Shown here piece by piece: positions 18,995 to 64,000 of a stretch of DNA of 64,000 nucleotides. The number at the start of each line of letters is the position of its first letter. The first letter of the stretch is position 1. The notes beneath the pieces were generated by a model that saw only the letters and a program-made list of their open reading frames with translations, was not told where the DNA came from and searched no databases. The position numbers were made by a program, and so were the translations under genes. Source of the stretch: Macrolepiota albuminosa (lineage: Eukaryota; Basidiomycota; Agaricomycetes; Agaricales; Agaricaceae). The stretch lies in contig JAMWFC010000009.1 of NCBI GenBank assembly GCA_027475525.1, forward strand, positions 186,001 through 250,000. The letters run 5' to 3'.

Positions 18995-19865
18995 TGTCAC
19001 GACCCCCTCCCTCCGGGCCCACCCCGGGACACCCCCGGAACACCATCCGGGACCCTCCCTCCGACCCCACAGGACACGCCCCGCCATCACGACCGCCGAC
19101 ACCGCCATCACGCGCATCAGGACCGCCATCAACCGCCACCGATCGCCATCAGCCAGCCCCCGGGACCCCTGCATCACAGACCCCGGGATCAACCGCCATC
19201 GACGATCGGATCACGCGGCTCGCATCAAGCCATCACGCATCACGCCCCACGCATCACGACTCCCTCCGCGCCAATTGATCGCGCGCTCCCCACGCGCGAT
19301 CCCGGTACGCACCCCCTGCCGCTACTCAATAACCCCCGGAACCCATCCCAGACATCCCGGAACCCCGAGACCCGGCCCCGTAGTACTTATAGCGTAGTTC
19401 CTTGTTGTATTCGCTAGTCTTGATATTGCATAACTGTTACTTGGATATTGCGTGCCCTTTTGTTTGACTGGTACGCCTCGTTTGGTACGCTTCGACTGGC
19501 ACGCCTTAGCATTCGCGTGCTATAAGTTTGGTACGCACTTCGCGACTCTTAAGTTACTAACTTGGTCTCGTCTTAGAACCTCCGGTTCACGACTCGACCC
19601 CCTCTAACTCCCAGCCACTTTCATCCAAAGTTACTAACTTGGTCTCGTCTTAGAACCTCCGGTTCACGACTCGACCCCCTCTAACTCCCAGCCACTTTCA
19701 TCCAAAACCCCGGACTCTAGTCCCCTCTCCCGGGATTACCCTGTCCTCGTCTTGAACCCCGGAGTCCCAGCCCCGGAGTTCCAGACACCCGAGTATCCGT
19801 AGATCAAGTCCGCATCGTAAGGGCGTCGCTTTCCCGGAAAGCCCCCGATTCAGCGGAACCTGACA
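18995..19865. mobile_element. Solo LTR, family A copy 2
   Basis: It has the same TGTCA...TGACA termini and internal order as 8406-9154. It is flanked by a perfect 5-bp target duplication (ATAAT at 18990-18994 and 19866-19870). The apparent length of 871 bp includes a 77-bp assembly duplication at 19551-19704, so the real length is about 794 bp. No internal coding domain is present. Confidence 0.9.
19551..19704. repeat. 77-bp tandem direct duplication (assembly junction)
   Basis: Copies start at 19551 and 19628, inside the solo LTR. The sister LTR at 8.4-9.15 kb has this segment only once, which supports an artefact. Confidence 0.9.
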
Positions 19866-19942: not shown

Positions 19943-20042
19943 NNNNNNNNNNNNNNNNNNNNNNNNNNNNNNNNNNNNNNNNNNNNNNNNNNNNNNNNNN
20001 NNNNNNNNNNNNNNNNNNNNNNNNNNNNNNNNNNNNNNNNNN
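19943..20042. other. Scaffold gap of 100 N
   Basis: There are exactly 100 ambiguous bases, the usual placeholder for a gap of unknown length. It lies between the solo LTR and the 5' flank of the Gypsy element. Confidence 0.98.
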
Positions 20043-20286: not shown

Positions 20287-20334
20287 ATGTCTGAACTTCC
20301 ACACGTTGATGATATACAGTATTGGCACCCACGC
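20287..20334 (+). pseudogene. 5' piece of an unknown exon split by the Gypsy insertion
   Basis: An ATG at 20287 opens a 16-codon frame (MSELPHVDDIQYWHPR) that runs exactly to the left LTR edge. After the element and one copy of the ACGC duplication are removed, the frame continues without interruption at 31771. I do not recognise the protein. The gene is presumably inactivated by the insertion. Confidence 0.55.
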
Positions 20335-21285
20335 TGATGACGCCCAAAGTTTTGGTCAGCAACAAATGTAGCAGTAGTGTTACCGGACCAAGAGCTTGCG
20401 TTGGGCGCGCTAAAAGTAATATGAGGAGTCCCGGGCAGGTCCCAGAGAACGCGCCTAAGAAAATGAGAAAAGTCGGTAACGGGGTCGGCAAGTGTCAAGC
20501 GCTAAGGTAAAGCGCCTAAGGAAATGCGGTAAGTGAAGACGGCAAGGGTGAGCGGCAAGAGCACGATAAGCTTAGCAAAGTTCTAAGCGTCGATAATGCC
20601 TGCCGTAGTTGCAAGGCGCGAGTATGTCGAGTGTTGGCGAGCGTCTGCAACTGCCGATGAGTTTGACGTTGCCGACCGTAGCGTAAATGAGCTCTTGAGC
20701 GTAAGGGAGACTGAGGAAAGGGGAGTAAACTGTGGTCTATTGTTCTGATCATGGATGTACAAGTCGGTAAGTAATATATATACTACAAGGAGTTCACCGT
20801 CGCCAGTGACCAACCATCGCCAAAGTGCGGTAAACTGGAAAATTTCATAGGGGTAGCTCCAACGGTTTCCGATCCCTACCGTCCTTTGAGGACCCTTGGC
20901 GCCACCAGGCGGCAGATCGCGGTGCTAAACCATCAATCCATCACCCTTCTGTCTGTCAGAACACCTAAGCGACGTTGGGCGCCAAATCGAGACGGTAAGC
21001 GGTGTCAGACGCCAAGGTCAAACGCTAAGCTGTCCGTCAGTTTTTGATAGATCATCAAGCTTCTCGCTAAGCGCTGTCGTCAGTGACTGATGCCATCTGT
21101 CAGTTGTCATTCCTGCTGCCGTCGGCGCTATCATTGATTGGATCTGCTTCTTGCCGTGCGCGGCCGTCAGAAATGGCTTAAAATAGGTAGAACGCGTGCG
21201 CTAAGTTCGGGACGAGTGCGGCAAGGTTTCCGGAGCCGGTGCCGAGCCTGCCGTTGATGCGCCTAACCTGTATAGGGTCCTATCA
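20335..21285 (-). repeat. Gypsy 3' LTR (951 bp)
   Basis: On the minus strand it begins TGATAGGACCC at 21285 and ends GGGCGTCATCA at 20335, giving inverted termini TGAT/ATCA. It is nearly identical to 30816-31766. On the plus strand its right edge lies 169 bp upstream of the antisense gene's ATG, so this LTR may act as a divergent promoter. Confidence 0.95.
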
Positions 21286-21300
21286 TCTCCCCCCAACTGA
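21286..21300 (-). promoter_or_regulatory. Polypurine tract
   Basis: On the minus strand TTGGGGGGAGA directly precedes the TGAT start of the 3' LTR, the expected site of plus-strand DNA priming. Confidence 0.8.
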
Positions 21301-21454
21301 AAAATTGACTGTCCTCAGTCACCAAATAAGGCTACTGTTACCGTTTTTGTGACAAGTGGCCCGTGCGTTCTTGAGATTTGGTTTATAGTCCTGGCGCATG
21401 AGTTTGGACTTCGTCTCTCCTCCACATTTTTACCTGGCGCTCTATTAAAAAAAT

Positions 21455-23889
21455 ATGTCTTTCCGAATTCCAACTCCGCCTCCAGTCCCGTCTCAGGCTG
21501 CTCAAGAAGCCGCCTACGCATACATCGCTAAGGCAAATAATTTCGTTAGGCGCATCGAGGGTGTGGGCGCGGAGGCGCCTTCAAATTTGGTCATCGCGGT
21601 TATGAAGTTATTGGAGCGTTGGTACGAGGTCCGTGTCCTTGGCGTAGGCTGGGATAAGGAGATTGAGGTGCGGGAGTGGTGCCGAGCCCGCTATGTGGAT
21701 AATCGTGGCGCGGAGTGGTTAGCGCCGTTTTCTCGCTTTGTAAGTGCTTTTAGTCTTTGCCGTGTCGCTGGCTGATTAGGTTCCTAGGCGCCTCCTCCTG
21801 TCCCTACCATTGAGGACGAGTTGGAGGATATCCTCTCTGGCGCCTTGCCGATGACGGTAAGCGCTCCCGCACCTGAGTAAGTATCTCTGATTTTTGATTT
21901 CTGACTTAGCTGTGGTCTGATCTGTCTCCCCATAGCAAACAAGAGGTGTTAGCGCCTCTTGCTAATTTGCAGGTGGACGCTGAGATGGCGGCTATCCGCG
22001 AGAGTGTGCTGGAAGAGGCCTCCCGTGACGCCAAGGAGAGGACCAAGGCCTTAGAGGAGCGAGAGGTCGTTGGCGAGACCCTGGTAGCCAGTGAGAGGTC
22101 GCCAATTGCAAGGAGGCAGGTGTCTGGTGGGAAGGATTCCCGCGCCGGTAGTGCCCAGAGCCCAGCACTGCCGGCAAGCACATCGGGCTCTCCGGTCAAG
22201 CCTGGCAAGACTTTAAAGAAGAAGGTAAGTTTGTGCGTTGTTACCGCTGGCGCTTATCGTTTATCCCATTCTAAGTCTCGCAAGGCTGCCGCCCCTCGTT
22301 ACACGGTAAGTTCGTTACGCCAAGGTACTTTCCCTGCTAACCAACCAGTTGACAGGCGCCAACGCAAACTTCCTTTAGCGACGCAGAGCTGAAGGGTTTG
22401 TTGGTGGCAAGACGAGATGAGGCGGTTTTGGATGGAGGAATGGAGGCGGGGGTGGTCTTGCCGGAGATGAAGGACAAGAAGACGGCAAGCCCAGCGGCAA
22501 GGCGGGAGTTCAAGGACTCCCAAGGGGCGGTAAGCACTTTGGCTTTCCTTGCCGCTTTCGTTAACATTCTTGTAGTGCGACAAGTGCTGGGCCGACAACG
22601 ACCCAGAGGGGTGTTGGTACCCCACTGGTGGCCAGCCCTGCTACCGGTGCGGTATGCTTAAACGGGCCTGCACTCTGGACGGCGCTAAGAGTCGCGAACG
22701 CGGTGGAGCTCCCGACGCGGTAGTGGAGCGCACTTTCAAGCGTGCCGTCCTCGTCAAAAGGGCGCGGGAGTTCGTTGAGGGGGAGAGGAAGAAGCAGGCC
22801 GCTGGCGACGCGGCGACGATTAGCAAGAGTTCCCTGGCGCTGCCGACGCGTCAAGGGGACGAGTCTGCAACAGTCGGCAACCGTGGCGCCGGAGAGCGCC
22901 AAGGGACTACGGTCCCTTCAAAACGACAAGTCTCTTCCCCTGCCAAGGGGAAGGGCAAGGCCAAACGTGCGCGGGTGGAGTCTCCTCCCTCTACCCCTGG
23001 AGACGTGGAGATGGAGGAGTTGGAGAAAGCGCTTGCCGCCAGCCGCCTGCCGCCGAGGGACACTGAAGCCGGGCCTAGCAAGTTACTTTCCCCTATCCAC
23101 CTGAGGGGGGTTTCTCTGCCTGCTGCCGATGAGGACGACGCGGTAGTGGACCCGCCGCCAAGGGAAGATCCTCAGGAGGTGGAACCCTCGGCAATGGCAG
23201 CAAGGGGAGCGGGAAGCCCTATGGCTATGGCTGGTGACGAGGACGCGGAGGGGGAGCCAGACGAGACTTTGGCGACCCAGCGCGAAGGTGACGAGGAAGA
23301 GGCCCCCGCCAAGGAGGCGGTAGCGGGAGAGGGTGAGGGAGAGGCATCGGCAAGGGAGGTAGTGGCAGAAGTCGAGGGCGCGGCAGGAGTTGCCAGGGAG
23401 GAGCCAGAGTGGCACTGGCTACCTCCCTACGGTAACGTTGCCCCCTGGGAAGTCTCAGACCCCGAGGACGTTGCCGGGTTGGAGCCCAGGCGTCCCGTGG
23501 TCGCCAGGATTAATCCTGCCTGGACCCCTCAGCCGCAGCCAACGGTTACAGGCGACGCGTTCCACTGGCTGGGACAAGACCTCGTGTACCCGGTGGTGGC
23601 ACTTAACCCGCGGGAGATGCTGGAGAGGTTCTCAAGTAGGGCGGCAACGATGGAGGCAGCAATGGGTCGGGAGCGGGAACGTGTCCGAGGCCAGCTTATG
23701 GCGCTTCGCTTGCGCTATTCCAATTTGGGTCGCAGCTTGCAGGTACTGCGTGATTACCAAGCGGATTGCCAAGCCGCTCTGGATTGGCAAACCGCTAACG
23801 ACATCCTACCTGGCGACCTCTTACCCCTTCGCGATTCTTCCCTCCCACTTTCCGACGCCTCCTTGTCGATGGATGATGTTAGCGATTAA
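21455..23889 (+). CDS. Antisense six-exon gene in the Gypsy element: zinc-cluster-like protein
   Basis: It runs opposite to gag-pol between pol and the 3' LTR. Exons read 21455-21739, 21788-21876, 21936-22224, 22276-22305, 22356-22529 and 22576-23889. All five introns are 46-59 nt with gtaag donors and AG acceptors, and phases agree, giving about 726 aa. The ATG at 22654 lies inside exon 6 and is not the start. Exon 6 opens with a cysteine array (C-x2-C-x8-C-x8-C-x2-C-x6-C; first part CDKCWADNDPEGCWYP) that resembles a fungal Zn(II)2Cys6 cluster with longer spacing. Basic, Ala/Glu-rich and acidic disordered stretches follow, then a probable coiled coil near the C-terminus (MLERFSSRAATMEAAMGRE). 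DNA or nucleic-acid binding is inferred from the cysteines only. It resembles no Env or Gag that I know. Confidence 0.7.
22576..22680 (+). other. Six-cysteine zinc-cluster-like motif
   Basis: The first codons of exon 6 of the antisense gene encode six cysteines in the order CxxC, C, CxxC, C with spacings 2-8-8-2-6, followed by basic residues (GAKSRERGG). Zn(II)2Cys6 regulators use C-x2-C-x6-C-x5-12-C-x2-C-x6-8-C and usually contact CGG triplets. The third spacing here is longer than standard, so a related but distinct cluster is possible. Confidence 0.6.
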
Positions 23890-24320
23890 ACGGACCTTAG
23901 CGTAGATAGGCCGTTTGTACATATATTTTTGTTGGCGCCTCAACTTCTTTATATAATTTTGGTGTTTCCCTACCGAGTGGAGGAATTGAGTCCAATAATC
24001 TGAGTTAGCGTAGCGGCAGAGCGCAAGGAAAGTATAACAGAGAGAAAGCAAGCGGTAAGTATTCTGAGGTAGGTATTAGCAAGAACAGTAATATGTGAGG
24101 GACTTAGACAAATTTTGAGGAAAAGGGAAACGCTCAGTAAATCATCATAGCGAAAAACCCTTGGCGAGAGTTGCGCAATGCGCTAAGCGTTGGCGACACG
24201 CTAGCGCTGCGACTTGACTACGTAAGGAATTGTCTGTGGAATATAGTACAGTAAGTATCGGCAAGAAAGATAAGTAAGATAAGTAATAGAAAGAAAGAGC
24301 TTATCAATATATATTCTTTT
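23890..24320. other. Intergenic segment between antisense gene and pol
   Basis: This is a convergent 3' region of the Gypsy element with no open frame of note. It is AT-richer than the coding parts yet still contains several motifs of the CG[CG][CT]AA class. Confidence 0.6.
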
Positions 24321-27300
24321 CTAATCTGGTTCTTCTTCTTCAACTAGAGTCGGTAAGTCCTCATCGTCCAGTAATTCTGTTTCTTCAAGTTCCCTAAGTT
24401 TGGCGGTGTCGATATCTAGCGCTTCAAGCGGCAAGTCAATGTGTTCTCTGGCGAGATACGGCAATAGGCGAAAAGCGGCAACAGGTCGATGTAGTACTGA
24501 ACCATCTAATTCACAGAGCACGTAAGCGCCTCCACGGTTACGAGAGATAACTACCAAAGGTCCTAGATAGCGAGGGCGCATTTTCTTGTTGTATGAAGTT
24601 TCGATTTTGGAGTTACGCATAAGCACTAGCGCTCCTCTCGGGAAGTTGTAATCTTTGATGGTAGCGCTATGCTCGGTTTCGAATCGTAGGGCTGCTTGGC
24701 GACGGGCGCTAAAGACTACCTCGTGGAGTCGCTCTAAATCTTCTTTCCTTCGTTGGAGGTCAATAGCTCGTCTGGCGATAAGATCGGTAGTCGCTAAGAT
24801 GCTATTGGGTGCTGGCTGAAGGTAGGTCGCTTCTATGATGTCGGCAGGGAGTAAAGGATGGGTGCCAGTAGCCGCGTAATAGGGAGAACAACCCATGCGC
24901 TTACGAATGGTAACTCTTTCCGACCAAAATACTGAATAAGTCGCTTCACTCCAACGAGACTCGTCGCCATCGACTGCCTTGAAAAGCGCTTGCCGAACGT
25001 CAAAGTGTGGTCTTTCCACCAGGCCATTGGCGCGCTTGTTGTAGCCAGATACTCGAATGTGGTGAATGTTGTATTTCTTGGCGAGGTATGTTAGCGCTTT
25101 GATGATGGGCGCACCGTTATCCGTGACGATTTCTCTTAGCGCTCCCCAACGGCAAATGACATCCTCAAATAGCCACTTTGCGACCGCATCGGTATTTTCT
25201 CTTTGAAGCATTCGAAATTCAGGCCAGTGGATTAGCGAGCAACGACCTTGAATGATGTACTTGTAGCGACCAGATTTGGGCATGTGCATGGTATCGACGT
25301 AGATTTTGCTGAAGAGGGGAGCTGGCGTTGCAACGGTTGGCGGTATGAGCACTTGGCGTGTCTGTTGGATTTGGCAGAGGTGGCAAGTCCTGATGTACCA
25401 GGCGATGTCGGCGCTAGCGTGTGGCCACCAGAATCGTTCTAGCAGAGAAGCTCGAGTAGCGTACAGACCTCTATGTCCTAGCTCGTCATGCATAGCGCGC
25501 AAGACTCGTAAGCGACTTTCTGGCTTGATGATCAGCTTGTGAGCGCCATCTCGATTTCGTCGCCAAAGTCGGCTGTCGGTAAAGAAGAAGCGGGTAGCAT
25601 AGCGGATAAAGGTAGCGTATTGTTCGTCGGTAAGGCCTGTGGGTCGCTTAAGGTCTTGTAGCCATTGTTCAACTATTAACAGACGACTGTCCTCTGCCTT
25701 TGCCTTGGCGGATCGGGGAACGGCATCGTAGGTCAGGTTTTTGCTGTCTTCTCTTAGCGACTGGGGTTCCTGTACGACTTTTACTGGAGGCGAATTTTGA
25801 CTGAAAATGCTTGCCGTGTAGAATGTGAGGGGTGCGCTAAAGGTCTCGGGGCGGTAAGGGACAATGGGATGTAGAAGGATGCTGGCAGACTGTTGCCGTC
25901 GTAGTAAGGGAATTGGCTGTTGAATAAGGTGTACGAAACCATGTAGTCGGTCGATCCAGTCCTCGAAATCGCTATCAGCCTGTGGGTCCACTGCCGGGTC
26001 GCCAGGCTGCCGTGGTCGCCTAGAGAGTCCATCTGGTCCGTGGAAAGAGCTCTTGACGTGTACCAACTCAAAGTGAAACATAAGGATAGCGACTACCCAC
26101 CGATTCATGCTAGCGGATGGCTGGATGTTGGGATTCTGCAGCATGCCTTTGATGTACCTAGCGTCGACTTCAACAATAAGGTTGCGCACGCCAATCAAAT
26201 ACATCTTTAGCGACCGGAAGGTTTTGAAAAGCCCATAGAGCTCTAGCTTAGGCTGACTGTAGCGAGATTCCCGGTCGTTTAGCGTGATGGACCCAAAGCG
26301 GTTGTAGCGTCGCTGTTTCCGATTGTCGCTAAGGCACTGGCACAGGAAGTAACCAACGGCAATGTACGAGGTATCCACCGCCAAGATAACAGGGTCGGCA
26401 GAGCTATAGTCGATGGGGACTAGGGGCTTGGCGTCTTGCAAGGCTTTTACCAAGTCTCGTTGTGCGGTAACCTGGTCTGGCCCAAATTCGAAGGGCTCGT
26501 TGGCGCGGGTGAGTCGGTTAAGGGCGTGTGCGCGATGGGCAAAGTTTTTGACGAATATCCTAAGAACGCCAACGGTGCCAAGAAAGGCGCGAACTTCAGA
26601 TAAGTCGCGGCAAGGACCCCAGCGCTCTAGGAGTGCTAGGCGAGACTCGTCGGGAACGCGTCCGTCGGGAGTGCAGATGTGACCAAGTATTTTGAACCTC
26701 GGCGCGCAAAGGAGGAGTTTGTGACCGCTAAACGTACCACCGCTATACTTCATTCGTTGTAGGACTCGATTGAGCAGTTGGAAAAAGTCCCATAGCGCTA
26801 AGCGAATGTTGGAGTTGTCGGGATGGGTTGCCGGCAAACCGTTCACGAGTCGCCAGTCTTTGGGGCCTTTGACGCCAACGTCGTCGATGAAGCTAAGGAC
26901 GTTATGCGGTATCTCGGGTTGGAGGATGAAAGTGATGTCGTCGTGGAATATAGGGACTGAGTTTGTCCAGCCCATCGGTAAGGTGACTAGGCGCAAGGCG
27001 CCAAACGGAGTTTGAAAGGTGGTGAGGTCACGGGAAGAGGGGTGTATTAAGCGTTCATCGTAGCCAACGTAGAGATCAAGGGTGGCGCCACAGATACGCC
27101 CGGCAAAGGACTCGGCAACGTGATCAGGGAAAGGCGGTACGCCAGAGTGTCGTATGGTTACTCTATTCAGCGGCTCAAGACTGTGGACTATGCGTAGATT
27201 GCCGTTCTTCTTGAGGACGCAGAACCAACGGGAGCGGTAAGAACTATTGGAGGGCTCGTAGACGCCAGCCTGTATCTTGGTCCTAATGATTTGGCAGACC

Positions 27301-28147
27301 TCGGCTTCAATTCCAGGCGGTAACGGTCGGTTGTGCTCAGTCCACGGTACGTGAGGAATGGTCGGGATGACGACTGGCGGGAAGAAATCCGTACGTAGGC
27401 TGCCGCGTTCTGAGTCCTCCCAAGCAAAGGCTTTATCCTGCTTAGCGACACTGGCGGGAAGAAATCCGTACGTAGGCTGCCGCGTTCTGAGTCCTCCCAA
27501 GCAAAGGCTTTATCCTGCTTAGCGATGAGATCGGTAAGGACATTCAACTCATCTTTGGTCAAAAATCCTGTGTCGTGCTCCTTGGCGAACTGCTGCTGGC
27601 GCTCCGTGGTAAAACGTCCTGTGGGCTGAAAAGGTGGCGGATTCGGTGATAAGGTCGGTATGTCGGCAAGAGGGTCGCCAATGATCTGGCGCTCGATTCT
27701 GAAAGTCTCGGGAGAGTGCGTAGCGACGGGTTTTGTTTTAAGCGCAACTGGCTTATATTTCTTTTTAACTTGTACCCCTTTCCTTTTGGGAGCGTTAGCC
27801 TGGTTATAAACAGAGGTGGAAAGGGGAACTGTAGCCTGAGGAGCGGCAAGTCCAAGAACGGCAGGGGACGAGGCTCCGGGAAGAGTGGTGAGATAAGTAT
27901 CGGTAGACGCTATATTTTGAAAAGATTCGGAAGCGGTAAGGTACAAGTAGGCAAGAGAGGAGTTGGCAATATTTTGATTTTTCTGGGAAATCTCTGCGTC
28001 GGTAGCAGGTAAAGTAGTTAAAACGTCTTGGTCAAGAAAAGCAGTAGACATAACAGTTACAAGACCAGTTGAATGGTCATATTCCAGCGTTAGCGCTACA
28101 TCTCCGTGATCGTCGCCAATCACCTCCTCGATGGTCTGTGAAAACAC
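24321..28147 (-). CDS. pol: Gypsy Pol: reverse transcriptase, RNase H, integrase
   Basis: Read from 28147 down to 24321, it is split into two frames only by the 77-bp duplication at 27373-27526. With one copy removed the frame is continuous and encodes about 1249 aa. The N-terminal quarter has no clear domain. RT follows with LDLYVGYDERL and the catalytic FIDDVGV (a FIDD variant of YxDD). RNase H begins near VILAVDTSY. The integrase has an HHCC finger (HDELGHRG...CHLCQ) and a D-D-E core seen as VDTMHMP, VTDNGAP and the E of NGLVERPHF. A GPY/F-like module (RYLGPLVV) is near the C-terminus; I see no chromodomain. The start overlaps the gag ORF end by 28 nt in the -1 frame, so -1 frameshifting or reinitiation would be needed for expression. 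Confidence 0.92.
27373..27526. repeat. 77-bp tandem direct duplication (assembly junction) inside pol
   Basis: Copies start at 27373 and 27450. The peptide KAFAWEDSERGSLRTDFFPP appears in both flanking frames. Because 77 is not a multiple of three, the duplication shifts the frame and makes pol look broken. Confidence 0.92.
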
Positions 28148-30432
28148 CGATGGGGAGGCTCGTTGGCGTGCTGGTCGGTAAACTCCGGGGGCTTAGCGCA
28201 GGCGCCTTTTCGTTGTCCCCTAGGGAACGTTGGCACCGTTCGTCGGATTCCGGAATTGGGGTCGCTAATTGTGAGGGTCGTTTCCTCGTCGGTAACTGTT
28301 TTGACGACTGATCGCGCCAAGACGTCGAAAGGTCTGCCGAGTAGTAAGTCGTAAGCCGGGGAACGTAAAATGTGGATTTGAAGATAAAACGTAATGTCGC
28401 CAAGGGTGCACGGCACATTCTTGGCGAGGCCGAGGGATCTGTCCACGGTACCGTTAGCGCTCTGCATGTTTAGTATAACCGTAGGGTCGTAAATGAGGCC
28501 TAGATCGTTAGCGACTTCTGCTGCCATAGAAATAATCTGAGACCCGCTATCCACGATTGCCTCTACTTCGTGCTTGTTGTCTACGGTTAGCGCTACCGAG
28601 CGGATAGCGTGCGATTCTTGAGCGACGGTAAGGATTGCTGGGTCTTCTTCATGGTCTACCGACCTAAGGTAGGTCTCCACTGGATCCACAGAGGTGGCGT
28701 TAGCGATGGTGTCGGCAGGAGATTCTTCAGCGTCCAGCGAGTCGACGGTAACAGAAAAACCAGGGAGCGCATCGTCGAGTTCATCAACCTCGGCAACAGC
28801 TGTCGCCAAGGGTCGTCGGGGAGTGACTGCCGTTTTGACTTGGTTGCGAACGTCGGGAGCAATACTACAAAGTTCTTCTACTGACAAGGTGACGTGGGTT
28901 TTCATGATGCGGTTAAAAACGTGGTTCGATTTTTCGATGTCGAAAATTGGCGCAGTAGGTCGGTAGCCACCCTCAGGACGTTTCTCGGGAGCGGCAAAGT
29001 TTCGTTGTGCGGGAGCGTGATAACGGTCGGGAATCCCTGAATAGGGATGGAGAGGCGGCAAAGGCGGTTCGGGAGCGGTAGCGGACGACGATGGTTCTGG
29101 AGCAGTATCAGGGGTAGTGGCAGGAGGTGCGGCAGGAGCAGGTGTCGGTAACTTGCTAGCGGGAGGCATTGGCTTGTATCCTTTAAGAGGTTGTTTAGGC
29201 TGCTTAACTTCAACCCCATCAAACACCTGATTCTTAAGCAAATCCAGCTCCTGTTGGAGCTTGGCGATACGTTCTTCCCGCGAGAAAGTAGGATGGTCGC
29301 CAACGCTGTCGAAGTGTAGGACCTCGTGAATCATCTGCTGTTGGGTCGCCTGTTCGGGGTCGGGGTTGGCGTTGCCAGATAGCGTGCCGGTAACGATTTG
29401 TCCTGGATTGCGCCTATGCCATTCATCAACTCGCTCCTGGAAGGACTTCTTGTCTGGGTAGTTGGGAATGATGGCGCCAGTAGTGAGAACTATCTTGCCG
29501 TCGATAGCCCGTCGAATTCTACCTTGCCGAATGTAATTCTCGAGGGTAGCGCAGCGTCCTCTAGTCATGGTGTGGCCAATTTCCCCACAGAAGTGGCAAG
29601 GGCCAGGTGCGGGTACGTTAGCGGGTCGGTTAGCAGTCAGGTTGGTGGTAATCATGGTTTCGATGCGTGTCATAGCGGAAGCAACAGCCGCGGTAATAGC
29701 AGCATTGAGCTCCTCCTTCTTAACGAAGTCGGCAGCGGGAGGTGGGATGGGAATAATACCGTTAGTTCGCTCAGGGGGTGGGCTCGTCCTAGCGCGCTGC
29801 AGTCCAACGCCAGTGTCCGTTCCCTTGAGAACCCATTTACCGGCTTCAAAGACGTCGGCAACGTTATAGGGCTCGTCTGGGTGATGGGCCTGATGAACTA
29901 TCTCTAGGCGACGAGCAATACGAGTCCAAAGCGAAGTCGGGATGCCTTGTTGGAATAGGCGACGCTCCTCGTTAATATAGAGCTTGCCGTTCTGCAGAAG
30001 CCACCTAGCGATTTTCTGGAACTCGCGGTAATACGTAGAGAATGCGCCAAGCGACGATGTGCCACTGTCGAAGGATTCCTGAACTAGTTTCTGGAGCTCG
30101 TTTACCGTGTATCGGGTAGCCTCCTCGGCGCCAGGGTACAGCTGGATCACTGCCGTCTTCCAGTCCTCATACGAAGCGCCTTGGGCTGGAGCTGGCGGGG
30201 CGGCAGGAACAAAGGCGGCAAACTCGGTAAGACCTGTCCACGTCTCTGCCATGTCATATGATACGTATCTTGCCGCGTACTCCTTCATCTGCGTGTGGTC
30301 GGTAATGTTACAATCCCTGAATAAATACTCCAACTCCTTAAAATACTGGGAGAGCTCCCGTGGCTTGGTCTCGTCCCATTTTGGTGCCGAGAAGTGGTTG
30401 CGTGGCGGCATGCGTTGGACTTGTTGTTCCAT
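28120..30432 (-). CDS. gag: Gypsy Gag with C-terminal aspartic protease
   Basis: The first in-frame ATG is at 30432, giving about 770 aa to the stop at 28120. The same frame stays open upstream to about 30786 without an ATG, so a non-AUG start or a spliced 5' exon is possible. The capsid-like part (about residues 20-230) includes RELSQYFKELEYLF and EERRLFQQGIPTSLW. A zinc knuckle CHFCGEIGHTMTRGRC has spacing C-x2-C-x4-H-x6-C, two residues longer than the canonical last gap. Proline-rich linkers follow. The protease has the catalytic AIVDSGSQI (DSG) and the flap-side ILRSPAYDLLLGRPF. The 28-nt overlap with pol is in -1 phase. Confidence 0.92.
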   Translation of the reverse strand: MEQQVQRMPPRNHFSAPKWDETKPRELSQYFKELEYLFRDCNITDHTQMKEYAARYVSYDMAETWTGLTEFAAFVPAAPPAPAQGASYEDWKTAVIQLYPGAEEATRYTVNELQKLVQESFDSGTSSLGAFSTYYREFQKIARWLLQNGKLYINEERRLFQQGIPTSLWTRIARRLEIVHQAHHPDEPYNVADVFEAGKWVLKGTDTGVGLQRARTSPPPERTNGIIPIPPPAADFVKKEELNAAITAAVASAMTRIETMITTNLTANRPANVPAPGPCHFCGEIGHTMTRGRCATLENYIRQGRIRRAIDGKIVLTTGAIIPNYPDKKSFQERVDEWHRRNPGQIVTGTLSGNANPDPEQATQQQMIHEVLHFDSVGDHPTFSREERIAKLQQELDLLKNQVFDGVEVKQPKQPLKGYKPMPPASKLPTPAPAAPPATTPDTAPEPSSSATAPEPPLPPLHPYSGIPDRYHAPAQRNFAAPEKRPEGGYRPTAPIFDIEKSNHVFNRIMKTHVTLSVEELCSIAPDVRNQVKTAVTPRRPLATAVAEVDELDDALPGFSVTVDSLDAEESPADTIANATSVDPVETYLRSVDHEEDPAILTVAQESHAIRSVALTVDNKHEVEAIVDSGSQIISMAAEVANDLGLIYDPTVILNMQSANGTVDRSLGLAKNVPCTLGDITFYLQIHILRSPAYDLLLGRPFDVLARSVVKTVTDEETTLTISDPNSGIRRTVPTFPRGQRKGACAKPPEFTDQHANEPPHRCFHRPSRR

Positions 30433-30786
30433 GGCGACGGTGGTAACGAGTTCGGTTAGCGGTAGTGGGGAAGGAGTTCTAGGTATTGGCGACGGGGTAA
30501 GAGAAATGGCAAATTGAGAAAGCGGTGTTAGAGGAGTGATGGGGGTAACTGATTGCGGCAAAGTAAAGGGCGACGCTAAGGGGTCGTCGGCACTATAATC
30601 GAGGGAATGCGGGAAGAGATCAGGAAAAGCGTCTACAGTGGCGTTCTGTAGTTCCTGGGCTAGAGAGAGACCCGGTAAGGCACCAGGTGGTTGTGGAGTT
30701 GATGGGTGGGAAGGAGCTATGCCTTCTGCCGACTGGTTTAGCAGGCGGCGCCTACGCTGGAGACGGGTTTCTGGCGGAATTCTGCC
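30433..30786 (-). other. ATG-less open extension upstream of gag
   Basis: The gag frame remains open for about 118 codons upstream of its first ATG and begins directly after the PBS region. The peptide has coding-like composition (PSHPSTPQPPGALPG; FPDLFPHSLDYSADD). Either translation starts at a non-AUG codon or a leader intron joins an upstream start. Confidence 0.5.
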
Positions 30787-30794
30787 CTAGAGAT

Positions 30795-30812
30795 CCCTCG
30801 CGGTGGGCTCCA
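30795..30812 (-). promoter_or_regulatory. Primer-binding site of the Gypsy element
   Basis: Three nucleotides inside the 5' LTR, the minus strand reads TGGAGCCCACCGCGAGGG. It starts with the TGG expected to pair with the CCA end of a tRNA primer. I cannot name the tRNA isotype. The first eleven bases recur as the putative PBS of the TRIM-like element at 41.4-41.9 kb. Confidence 0.75.
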
Positions 30813-30815
30813 ATT

Positions 30816-31766
30816 TGATGACGCCCAAAGTTTTGGTCAGCAACAAATGTAGCAGTAGTGTTACCGGACCAAGAGCTTGCGTTGGGCGCGCTAAAAGTAA
30901 TATGAGGAGTCCCGGGCAGGTCCCAGAGAACGCGCCTAAGAAAATGAGAAAAGTCGGTAACGGGGTCGGCAAGTGTCAAGCGCTAAGGTAAAGCGCCTAA
31001 GGAAATGCGGTAAGTGAAGACGGCAAGGGTGAGCGGCAAGAGCACGATAAGCTTAGCGAAGTTCTAAGCGTCGATAATGCCTGCCGTAGTTGCAAGGCGC
31101 GAGTATGTCGAGTGTTGGCGAGCGTCTGCAACTGCCGATGAGTTTGACGTTGCCGACCGTAGCGTAAATGAGCTCTTGAGCGTAAGGGAGACTGAGGAAA
31201 GGGGAGTAAACTGTGGTCTATTGTTCTGATCATGGATGTACAAGTCGGTAAGTAATATATATACTACAAGGAGTTCACCGTCGCCAGTGACCAACCATCG
31301 CCAAAGTGCGGTAAACTGGAAAATTTCATAGGGGTAGCTCCAACGGTTTCCGATCCCTACCGTCCTTTGAGGACCCTTGGCGCCACCAGGCGGCAGATCG
31401 CGGTGCTAAACCATCAATCCATCACCCTTCTGTCTGTCAGAACACCTAAGCGACGTTGGGCGCCAAATCGAGACGGTAAGCGGTGTCAGACGCCAAGGTC
31501 AAACGCTAAGCTGTCCATCAGTTTTTGATAGATCATCAAGCTTCTCGCTAAGCGCTGTCGTCAGTGACTGATGCCATCTGTCAGTTGTCATTCCTGCTGC
31601 CGTCGGCGCTATCATTGATTGGATCTGCTTCTTGCCGTGCGCGGCCGTCAGAAATGGCTTAAAATAGGTAGAACGCGTGCGCTAAGTTCGGGACGAGTGC
31701 GGCAAGGTTTCCGGAGCCGGTGCCGAGCCTGCCGTTGATGCGCCTAACCTGTATAGGGTCCTATCA
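30816..31766 (-). repeat. Gypsy 5' LTR (951 bp)
   Basis: It has the same length and ends as the 3' LTR. On reading I find 23 CG[CG][CT]AA motifs (both strands) in this LTR against about two expected by chance. The Pol II promoter start is not obvious. Confidence 0.95.
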
Positions 31767-31770
31767 ACGC

Positions 31771-63200: not shown

Positions 63201-64000
63201 GCTTTAAGAAGCTGATTCATTCTCGTGATCTAAGACCCTTTGCCACTGTCATATCAATAGTCGCCTTCTGTATATTTTACTTGCTAACCTGACGTTACTT
63301 ATCATCTGTCCATATTCTTGCCCTTCACAATACCGGTGTATCTCTCTATCACGAGTCTTCGTATCAGGACCCAGATGACTTAAAAGTTATTCCCTTGGGG
63401 AATCTTATCTGAGTTCATTTTCTCTAGACATCATGTGGGCACTACTTCAGCTCCTTCTGGTCTGCTTTTACACTGTTATTCTGACCGCGCCCCGGTATCA
63501 TCACGTCTCAAAAGAGTAGACGAACATTCCGTCATGGAGCCGCTTAATATATCCTAACAACGGTCAAGTCTACAAGTGAGCAGTCTCCGCATACACCTGT
63601 CGGCTAACACATCACTGGTCCAAGCTGTCGTGGAATGCATGGTCTATTGCATCCGATTCCTTTTAATTATTCTGAAAAATCAATCCTTAGAGAGAAATGT
63701 CAGGTCTCACTCCAGCCAGTCATCTTCTTCATCTCAAGGCGCAGGAGCTTTCAGTGTTCGCTACTAAAGACCTGTCAACACCGAGGGCGTCAGATTATTT
63801 CAAGAAACACCGGAGGCGCAGGAGCTTTCAGTGTTCGCTACTAAAGACCTGTCAACACCGAGGGCGTCAGATTATTTCAAGAAACACCGGCGTGAAACGG
63901 ATTACCTTATCAGTGTTCATCAATGCATGTAATGATTATCTTTCATTCCCTGCCGTCCTCACTATCATCACCATATTAGTGACGTTGCGGTCTTCGAAGC
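63201..64000. other. Right end, no gene supported
   Basis: Apart from a 77-bp duplication no structure is apparent. Confidence 0.45.
63737..63890. repeat. 77-bp tandem direct duplication (assembly junction)
   Basis: Copies start at 63737 and 63814. The peptide GAGAFSVRY is produced twice. Confidence 0.85.

Follow-up and report, generated by a model that had tools for sequence, protein, structure and literature searches.

We report that a Gypsy (Ty3-like) long terminal repeat (LTR) retrotransposon of the fungus Macrolepiota albuminosa is filled from end to end with one six-base word, CG[CG][CT]AA (hereafter CGSYAA; all counts include the reverse complement), which is maintained by selection, largely via synonymous choice, beyond composition or codon bias. 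The element occupies positions 20335-31766 of the window, the 64,000-nucleotide stretch analyzed here (contig JAMWFC010000009.1, within a 100.1-Mb assembly of 129 contigs), and carries, antisense to gag-pol, an extra gene for a protein with six cysteines. We assign a probability of roughly 0.4 to the reading that the whole element has been synonymously rewritten so that its own antisense protein covers every copy; the word would then be a lineage password changing with the protein, and self-recognition like that of the VANC proteins of Arabidopsis VANDAL transposons would have arisen independently in retrotransposons. Throughout, E denotes the type of the window's element and J a sister type.

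The element contains 191 CGSYAA sites (16.7 per kb, about one per 60 bases), compared with 53 in the remaining 52,468 bases of the window, and in 1-kb bins the density steps up and down at the element's ends. A sequence-only reading of this DNA had proposed that the word saturates LTRs and coding sequence alike, and the recount agrees: the density is highest in the LTRs, at 23 to 24 sites per kb, and still reaches 16.8 for gag, 15.5 for pol, and 14.4 for the antisense gene. Its hand counts were exact for 28081-29040 (20 sites) and 24361-25440 (16 sites); the 23 given for each LTR applies to the right one, the left having 22, and the solo LTR at 18995-19865, thought to lack the word, has one. 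With one LTR dropped, 168 sites stand against 24.5 expected from dinucleotide content, a 6.9-fold excess. Dinucleotide shuffles of the element (n = 300) gave a mean of 25.1 and a maximum of 40, so that the shuffle and flank control, which had been set as a test beforehand, came out in favor of the word, the flanks being sparse. A single LTR holds 22 sites versus 2.4 expected (shuffle maximum 10, n = 300), and the 30 fetched LTR copies, including the window's two, have 20 to 24 each.

The word is also sharply delimited. Its four hexamers take ranks 1 to 4 among canonical hexamers by z-score, and CGSYAA ranks first among hexamer patterns that allow two-fold degeneracy at no more than two positions, as it does by raw count within the 9,216 patterns sharing its shape. 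Sequences one mismatch away are found at 0.26- to 1.8-fold, with the exception of those ending in G (2.9-fold). Sites prefer G or T on the 5' side and G on the 3' side. The third base is C in 86 of the 168 sites and G in 82, which does not bear out the link to CGG triplets made earlier. Pairs of sites 6 to 8 bp apart are short in number (3 versus about 11 per three distances), as if every site were occupied. A fixed dimer spacing was considered and rejected: no distance is prominent over all loci, and there is only this deficit plus a same-strand excess of 115 to 86. A VANDAL-like origin of the sites from tandem repeats was likewise rejected, the sole tandem repeat reported in the element being an exact 77-bp duplication.

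Selection on the word is visible in shuffles of synonymous codons (1,000 per region), which hold both protein and codon usage constant. The gag-protease region has 41 sites versus 9.4 in shuffled sequence (maximum 18 in 1,000 runs), pol up to position 27371 has 49 versus 8.5 (maximum 16), and the exon encoding the cysteines has 14 versus 3.6 (maximum 9). Since all three counts lie above every one of the 1,000 shuffles, the word has been kept by selection. Moreover, the pol genes of E and J share only 43% of third bases at identical residues, which means that the density in E outlived near-saturation of synonymous sites. Bases within the motif differ less between copies than bases elsewhere, both in LTRs (0.0136 versus 0.0343; 28 copies) and at the end of pol (0.0258 versus 0.0557; 14 loci). 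CpG change among copies is scarce inside and outside the motif, so that these copies are too young to judge whether CpGs in the motif are protected from decay.

A comparison of the E and J families sets the density of the word beside the version of the cysteine core. The E-type loci comprise the window's element, ten loci from diverged groups, and the thirty nearest copies (L031-L060). CGSYAA is dense in 41 of 41 loci with an E core (12.4 to 16 per kb, all with at least 12 per kb); its enrichment is 5.4- to 6.4-fold in the ten diverged loci and 5.6- to 6.7-fold in the thirty nearest. In six E-type loci measured, the core matches that of the window in 60 to 63 of 70 residues and the linker in 104 to 147 of 230. 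In J, 40 of 70 core residues match those of the window, as do 57 of 230 in the linker and 28 of 137 in the remainder, and CGSYAA reaches 1.5- to 2.1-fold in five loci. Fifteen J-type stretches, that is, J loci cut smaller plus J pieces adjoining E solo LTRs, range from 1.2- to 4.8-fold (2.7 to 8.0 per kb), usually about 2-fold; the two high ones are the L021 3' flank (12 versus 2.7, 4.4-fold) and a 557-bp LTR piece of L017 (3 versus 0.6). J is well represented in the genome, with at least 119 matches to its antisense gene and at least 86 to its pol. The pol of the two types is 82% identical in protein and 70% in DNA. Across 2,259 aligned bases, where a hexamer is retained on average in 12% of cases, CGSYAA occurs 36 times in E and 13 times in J, with 5 shared. 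High CGSYAA density is thus shown to accompany one form of the six-cysteine core, the sister with the diverged core having a much lower one.

J has a leading word of its own, GCGCTA, found 42 times versus 6.4 expected over LTR plus internal region; its flanks are flat, and its one-mismatch neighbors do not exceed 2.3-fold. The J LTR has 12 versus 1.2, and the longer J pol block 9 versus 1.6, a count that 0 of 1,000 synonymous shuffles reach; for the shorter pol block and the cysteine exon, the count is reached by 6 and 5 of 1,000, respectively. At the J-type locus L077, GCGCTA is only 2.8-fold enriched. The GCGCTA-rich sequence that adjoins the J copy on its left is J's own LTR and not part of a chromovirus, as shown by its having the same termini and by the target-site duplication (TSD), CCGC. 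In the chromodomain Gypsy around the J copy, GCGCTA (1 versus 0.8) and CGSYAA (5 versus 5.5) are both at background. The window's element has 30 GCGCTA versus 6.9 expected, 16 of which are GCGCTAA, which includes CGCTAA; elsewhere in the window there are 3 in 51 kb. In the E/J alignment, it occurs 10 times in E and 13 times in J, with 5 shared. Pooled flanks of solo LTRs show both words (CGSYAA 75 versus 38.9, GCGCTA 33 versus 7.4), an unclean background, as several of them contain E or J pieces. The families therefore differ in that CGSYAA was gained or lost as the core type changed, and they have in common a second word, which leads in J. As to whether related elements carry another dense motif together with a diverged domain, J offers a different top word across a single divergence; since GCGCTA is enriched in E too, there is no clean or proven one-for-one swap.

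The antisense gene predicted earlier is real. It begins a short way in from the 3' LTR, and no other extra gene was found in the element; the cysteine exon is free of stop codons in 80 of 96 copies among the matches listed. AlphaFold2 gives confident predictions for a helix that follows the cysteines and for a long coiled coil at the C-terminus (predicted local distance difference test score above 90), with the cysteine region at low confidence in both models. Zn(II)2Cys6 transcription factors of fungi have six cysteines in two halves, canonically spaced C-X2-C-X6-C-X5-12-C-X2-C-X6-8-C, and a C-terminal coiled coil. The antisense protein resembles them in its two half-motifs and coiled coil, and differs in its first loop (X8 instead of X6), in the W, N, and P conserved between cysteines, and in sites that are CGC as often as CGG. 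Five family members gave no Pfam match at E values up to 10, neither to Zn_clus nor to TRP28, and no PDB sequence match was obtained. Membership in the Zn(II)2Cys6 family, to which the sequence-only reading had likened the motif, is thus not supported at the level of sequence. The relatives returned by protein searches were all from Termitomyces, and proteins of the Termitomyces genomes J132, T32, and T159 have other core types; 19 viral-contig stretches fit a peptide pattern, none of which codes for a relative. Many annotated relatives from Termitomyces T32 (P0005, P0011, P0022-P0031) show core changes of R to C, H, Q, or W and of D to N, as expected from C-to-T decay of old copies.

What might read the word? 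CGSYAA lies on both strands of genes that are transcribed in opposite directions, which points to a signal in double-stranded DNA rather than RNA. The best candidate for a binder is the antisense protein, because its gene is the only extra one, is conserved and mostly open, encodes a cysteine core plus coiled coil, and has a core that varies with the word; judging from these sequence features, we put the pairing of protein and word at about even odds. CGSYAA would then be a binding site in double-stranded DNA for the six-cysteine protein, two copies of which the coiled coil would join, and the bound protein would coat the element's own copies from end to end. Further along this line, site density might provide specificity, with stray host sites being ignored, and the bound protein might hold the element's chromatin active through self-specific anti-silencing or transactivation. 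By analogy with VANC, anti-silencing is our first choice of purpose, at somewhat less than even odds; cDNA (complementary DNA) packaging or self-marking would be alternative purposes.

Several observations count against a protein that covers its own element. Profile and structure-sequence searches (Pfam, PDB) returned no known DNA-binding match for the antisense protein. The slower change of motif bases comes with modest permutation fractions (0.0495 for LTRs and 0.025 for pol). J holds CGSYAA at about 2-fold, and at 4.4-fold in the one flank mentioned above, and its longer pol block has 10 sites versus 3.6, a number that 2 of 1,000 shuffles reach, the excess being made up of sites preceded by G. 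GCGCTA, conversely, is enriched 3.7- to 6.7-fold in the ten fetched E-type loci. Finally, the E/J contrast is a single divergence in which the whole protein changed and the core changed least, so that the core is not singled out. The VANC-like cognate pair put forward earlier has gained partial support from the synonymous choice, the 41 of 41 E-core loci, and the much sparser sister with a diverged core; its evolutionary contrast comprises a single divergence, and there the core moved less than the remainder of the protein.

Of the other explanations, a neutral mutational, compositional, or codon bias might be suspected from the element being richer than its flanks (GC 0.54; CpG observed/expected 1.05 versus 0.76). 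We reject it as highly improbable, given that neither dinucleotide nor synonymous shuffles ever attain the counts, that one-base neighbors of the word lack enrichment, and that the chromodomain Gypsy adjoining the J copy stays at background; this agrees with the earlier argument that bias alone should not suffice. A role in RNA, be it packaging, export, splicing, or translation of element transcripts, would suit a word that extends through the transcribed body and somewhat favors the plus strand (117 plus and 74 minus, with all reading frames hit). It is nonetheless improbable, because the sites are dense in both orientations in gag (22/19), pol (35/24), and the antisense gene (21/14) despite opposite transcription.

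A reader other than the antisense protein, which would then be otherwise employed, is a less remote prospect, albeit still an unlikely one. The element's integrase or Gag (for cDNA packaging or self-marking) or an exploited host chromatin or transcription factor could each be imagined in this role. CGSYAA spans the element in full, pol and gag included, which is beyond the needs of a promoter; Gag and pol have diverged between E and J as well (pol protein 82% identical); and the insertion of E at CpG-centered sites indicates that integrase reads CG somehow. On the other hand, the integrase regions are much closer between E and J (82%) than are the antisense proteins, yet the density differs, and the rarity of CGSYAA in the rest of the window does not favor a broadly used host factor. 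The antisense protein thus stays our preferred candidate, at the strength given above.

The identity of the element as a Gypsy retrotransposon rests on a pair of LTRs of 951 bp each with TGATGA..CTATCA ends, flanked by a 4-bp TSD (ACGC), and on Pfam matches to an aspartic protease, RT_RNaseH, and integrase H2C2 in gag-pol. The reverse transcriptase (RT) polymerase domain itself is absent among these matches, and that RT precedes integrase, as is the order in Gypsy, was deduced from the positions of RNase H and integrase. Feature coordinates are collected in the table.

Table. Coordinates of the retrotransposon, its flanking duplications, and its genes within the window
Feature	Position	Strand	Remarks
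Whole Gypsy LTR retrotransposon	20335..31766	- (gag-pol strand)	11,432 bp; 191 CGSYAA sites, both strands summed
Left LTR (3' LTR relative to gag-pol)	20335..21285	-	22 CGSYAA sites
Right LTR (5' LTR relative to gag-pol)	30816..31766	-	23 CGSYAA sites
TSD ACGC, left copy	20331..20334		
TSD ACGC, right copy	31767..31770		
pol	24321..28147	-	Two overlapping frames, 24321-27500 and 27188-28147; Pfam: RNase H and integrase zinc-binding domains
gag plus aspartic protease frame	28120..30561	-	41 CGSYAA sites
Exact 77-bp tandem duplication	27373..27525		Located where pol breaks into two frames
Antisense gene, apparently spliced	21455..23889	+	Exon limits inferred by eye; first-exon open reading frame 21455-21775 resembles annotated Termitomyces relatives at their N-termini
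Exon with six-cysteine core and C-terminal coiled coil	22576..23889	+	437 residues; 14 CGSYAA sites
Six-cysteine motif C-X2-C-X8-C-X8-C-X2-C-X6-C	22576..22671	+	

The 77-bp duplication at the break between the pol frames is probably an assembly artefact. Exact tandem duplications of this size (77- to 80-bp matches) occur at 19 places in the window, such as 393-546 and 63737-63890, with 6 further pairs within 12 kb at G000:C88:271004-283004, and look like k = 77 contig overlaps that an assembler left unmerged. A scaffold gap of 100 N lies immediately left of the element, at 19943-20042. As for insertion sites, outer ends of E-type LTRs (L001-L030) show 4-bp TSDs centered on CG, with NCGN at 34 of 39 ends, to which some insertions contribute both ends, versus 4.4% of nearby positions; the E-type integrase seems to choose CpG.

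The comparisons with known systems that follow draw on excerpts of the cited papers. For VANC21 and VANC6, binding and loss of methylation have been proven on Arabidopsis VANDAL DNA transposons, and the VANDAL21 motif is mainly noncoding, often in tandem repeats and in a single orientation (PMC5735166, PMC10398659). The E element likewise combines an extra protein of its own with a short motif that is dense within it and rare elsewhere, the pairing being a prediction here. It differs in being a fungal LTR retrotransposon in which CGSYAA is dispersed, in both orientations, over coding sequence as well as LTRs; noncoding tandem-repeat arrays of the VANDAL type were not found in the element, whose sites lie in coding sequence too. 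Related VANDAL families differ in their motifs, and their proteins have diverged, according to these excerpts; in J, across one divergence, CGSYAA is at about 2-fold and the top word is GCGCTA, which is enriched in E as well. Unpublished VANC structures mentioned in meeting reports suggest coevolution of protein and target (PMC8756742, PMC12859917).

Closer in architecture are the plant Retand elements, whose antisense open reading frames between pol and the 3' LTR encode a TRP28 domain, are predicted to bind DNA, and are likened to antisense genes of HTLV-type retroviruses (PMC11963269). The element described here is also of Gypsy type and also has, close to its 3' LTR, an antisense gene whose product is predicted to bind DNA; it is unlike Retand in that Pfam found no TRP28, and the excerpted text on Retand mentions no dense motif across the whole element. 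In fungi, TET/JBP genes presumed to act against methylation or hypermutation are present on DNA transposons (PMC12730594), a parallel insofar as a fungal element would bring a gene opposing methylation; that case is enzyme-based and concerns DNA transposons, with no dense self motif mentioned in the excerpts. Among the papers listed by literature searches, judged by titles and abstract openings, none describes a whole-element dense motif for a retrotransposon.

If the pairing of protein and word is true, self-specific recognition by element-encoded proteins would have arisen in retrotransposons and in fungi, and would be able to override synonymous codon choice across a whole element. The two sister families would then offer, within one genome, a compact system of one domain and a six-base word in which to study the distinction of self from host DNA, the escape from silencing, and the joint change of a DNA-binding domain with its many sites. 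Even with another binder, it needs explaining why selection keeps one motif across every gene and both LTRs of a retrotransposon.

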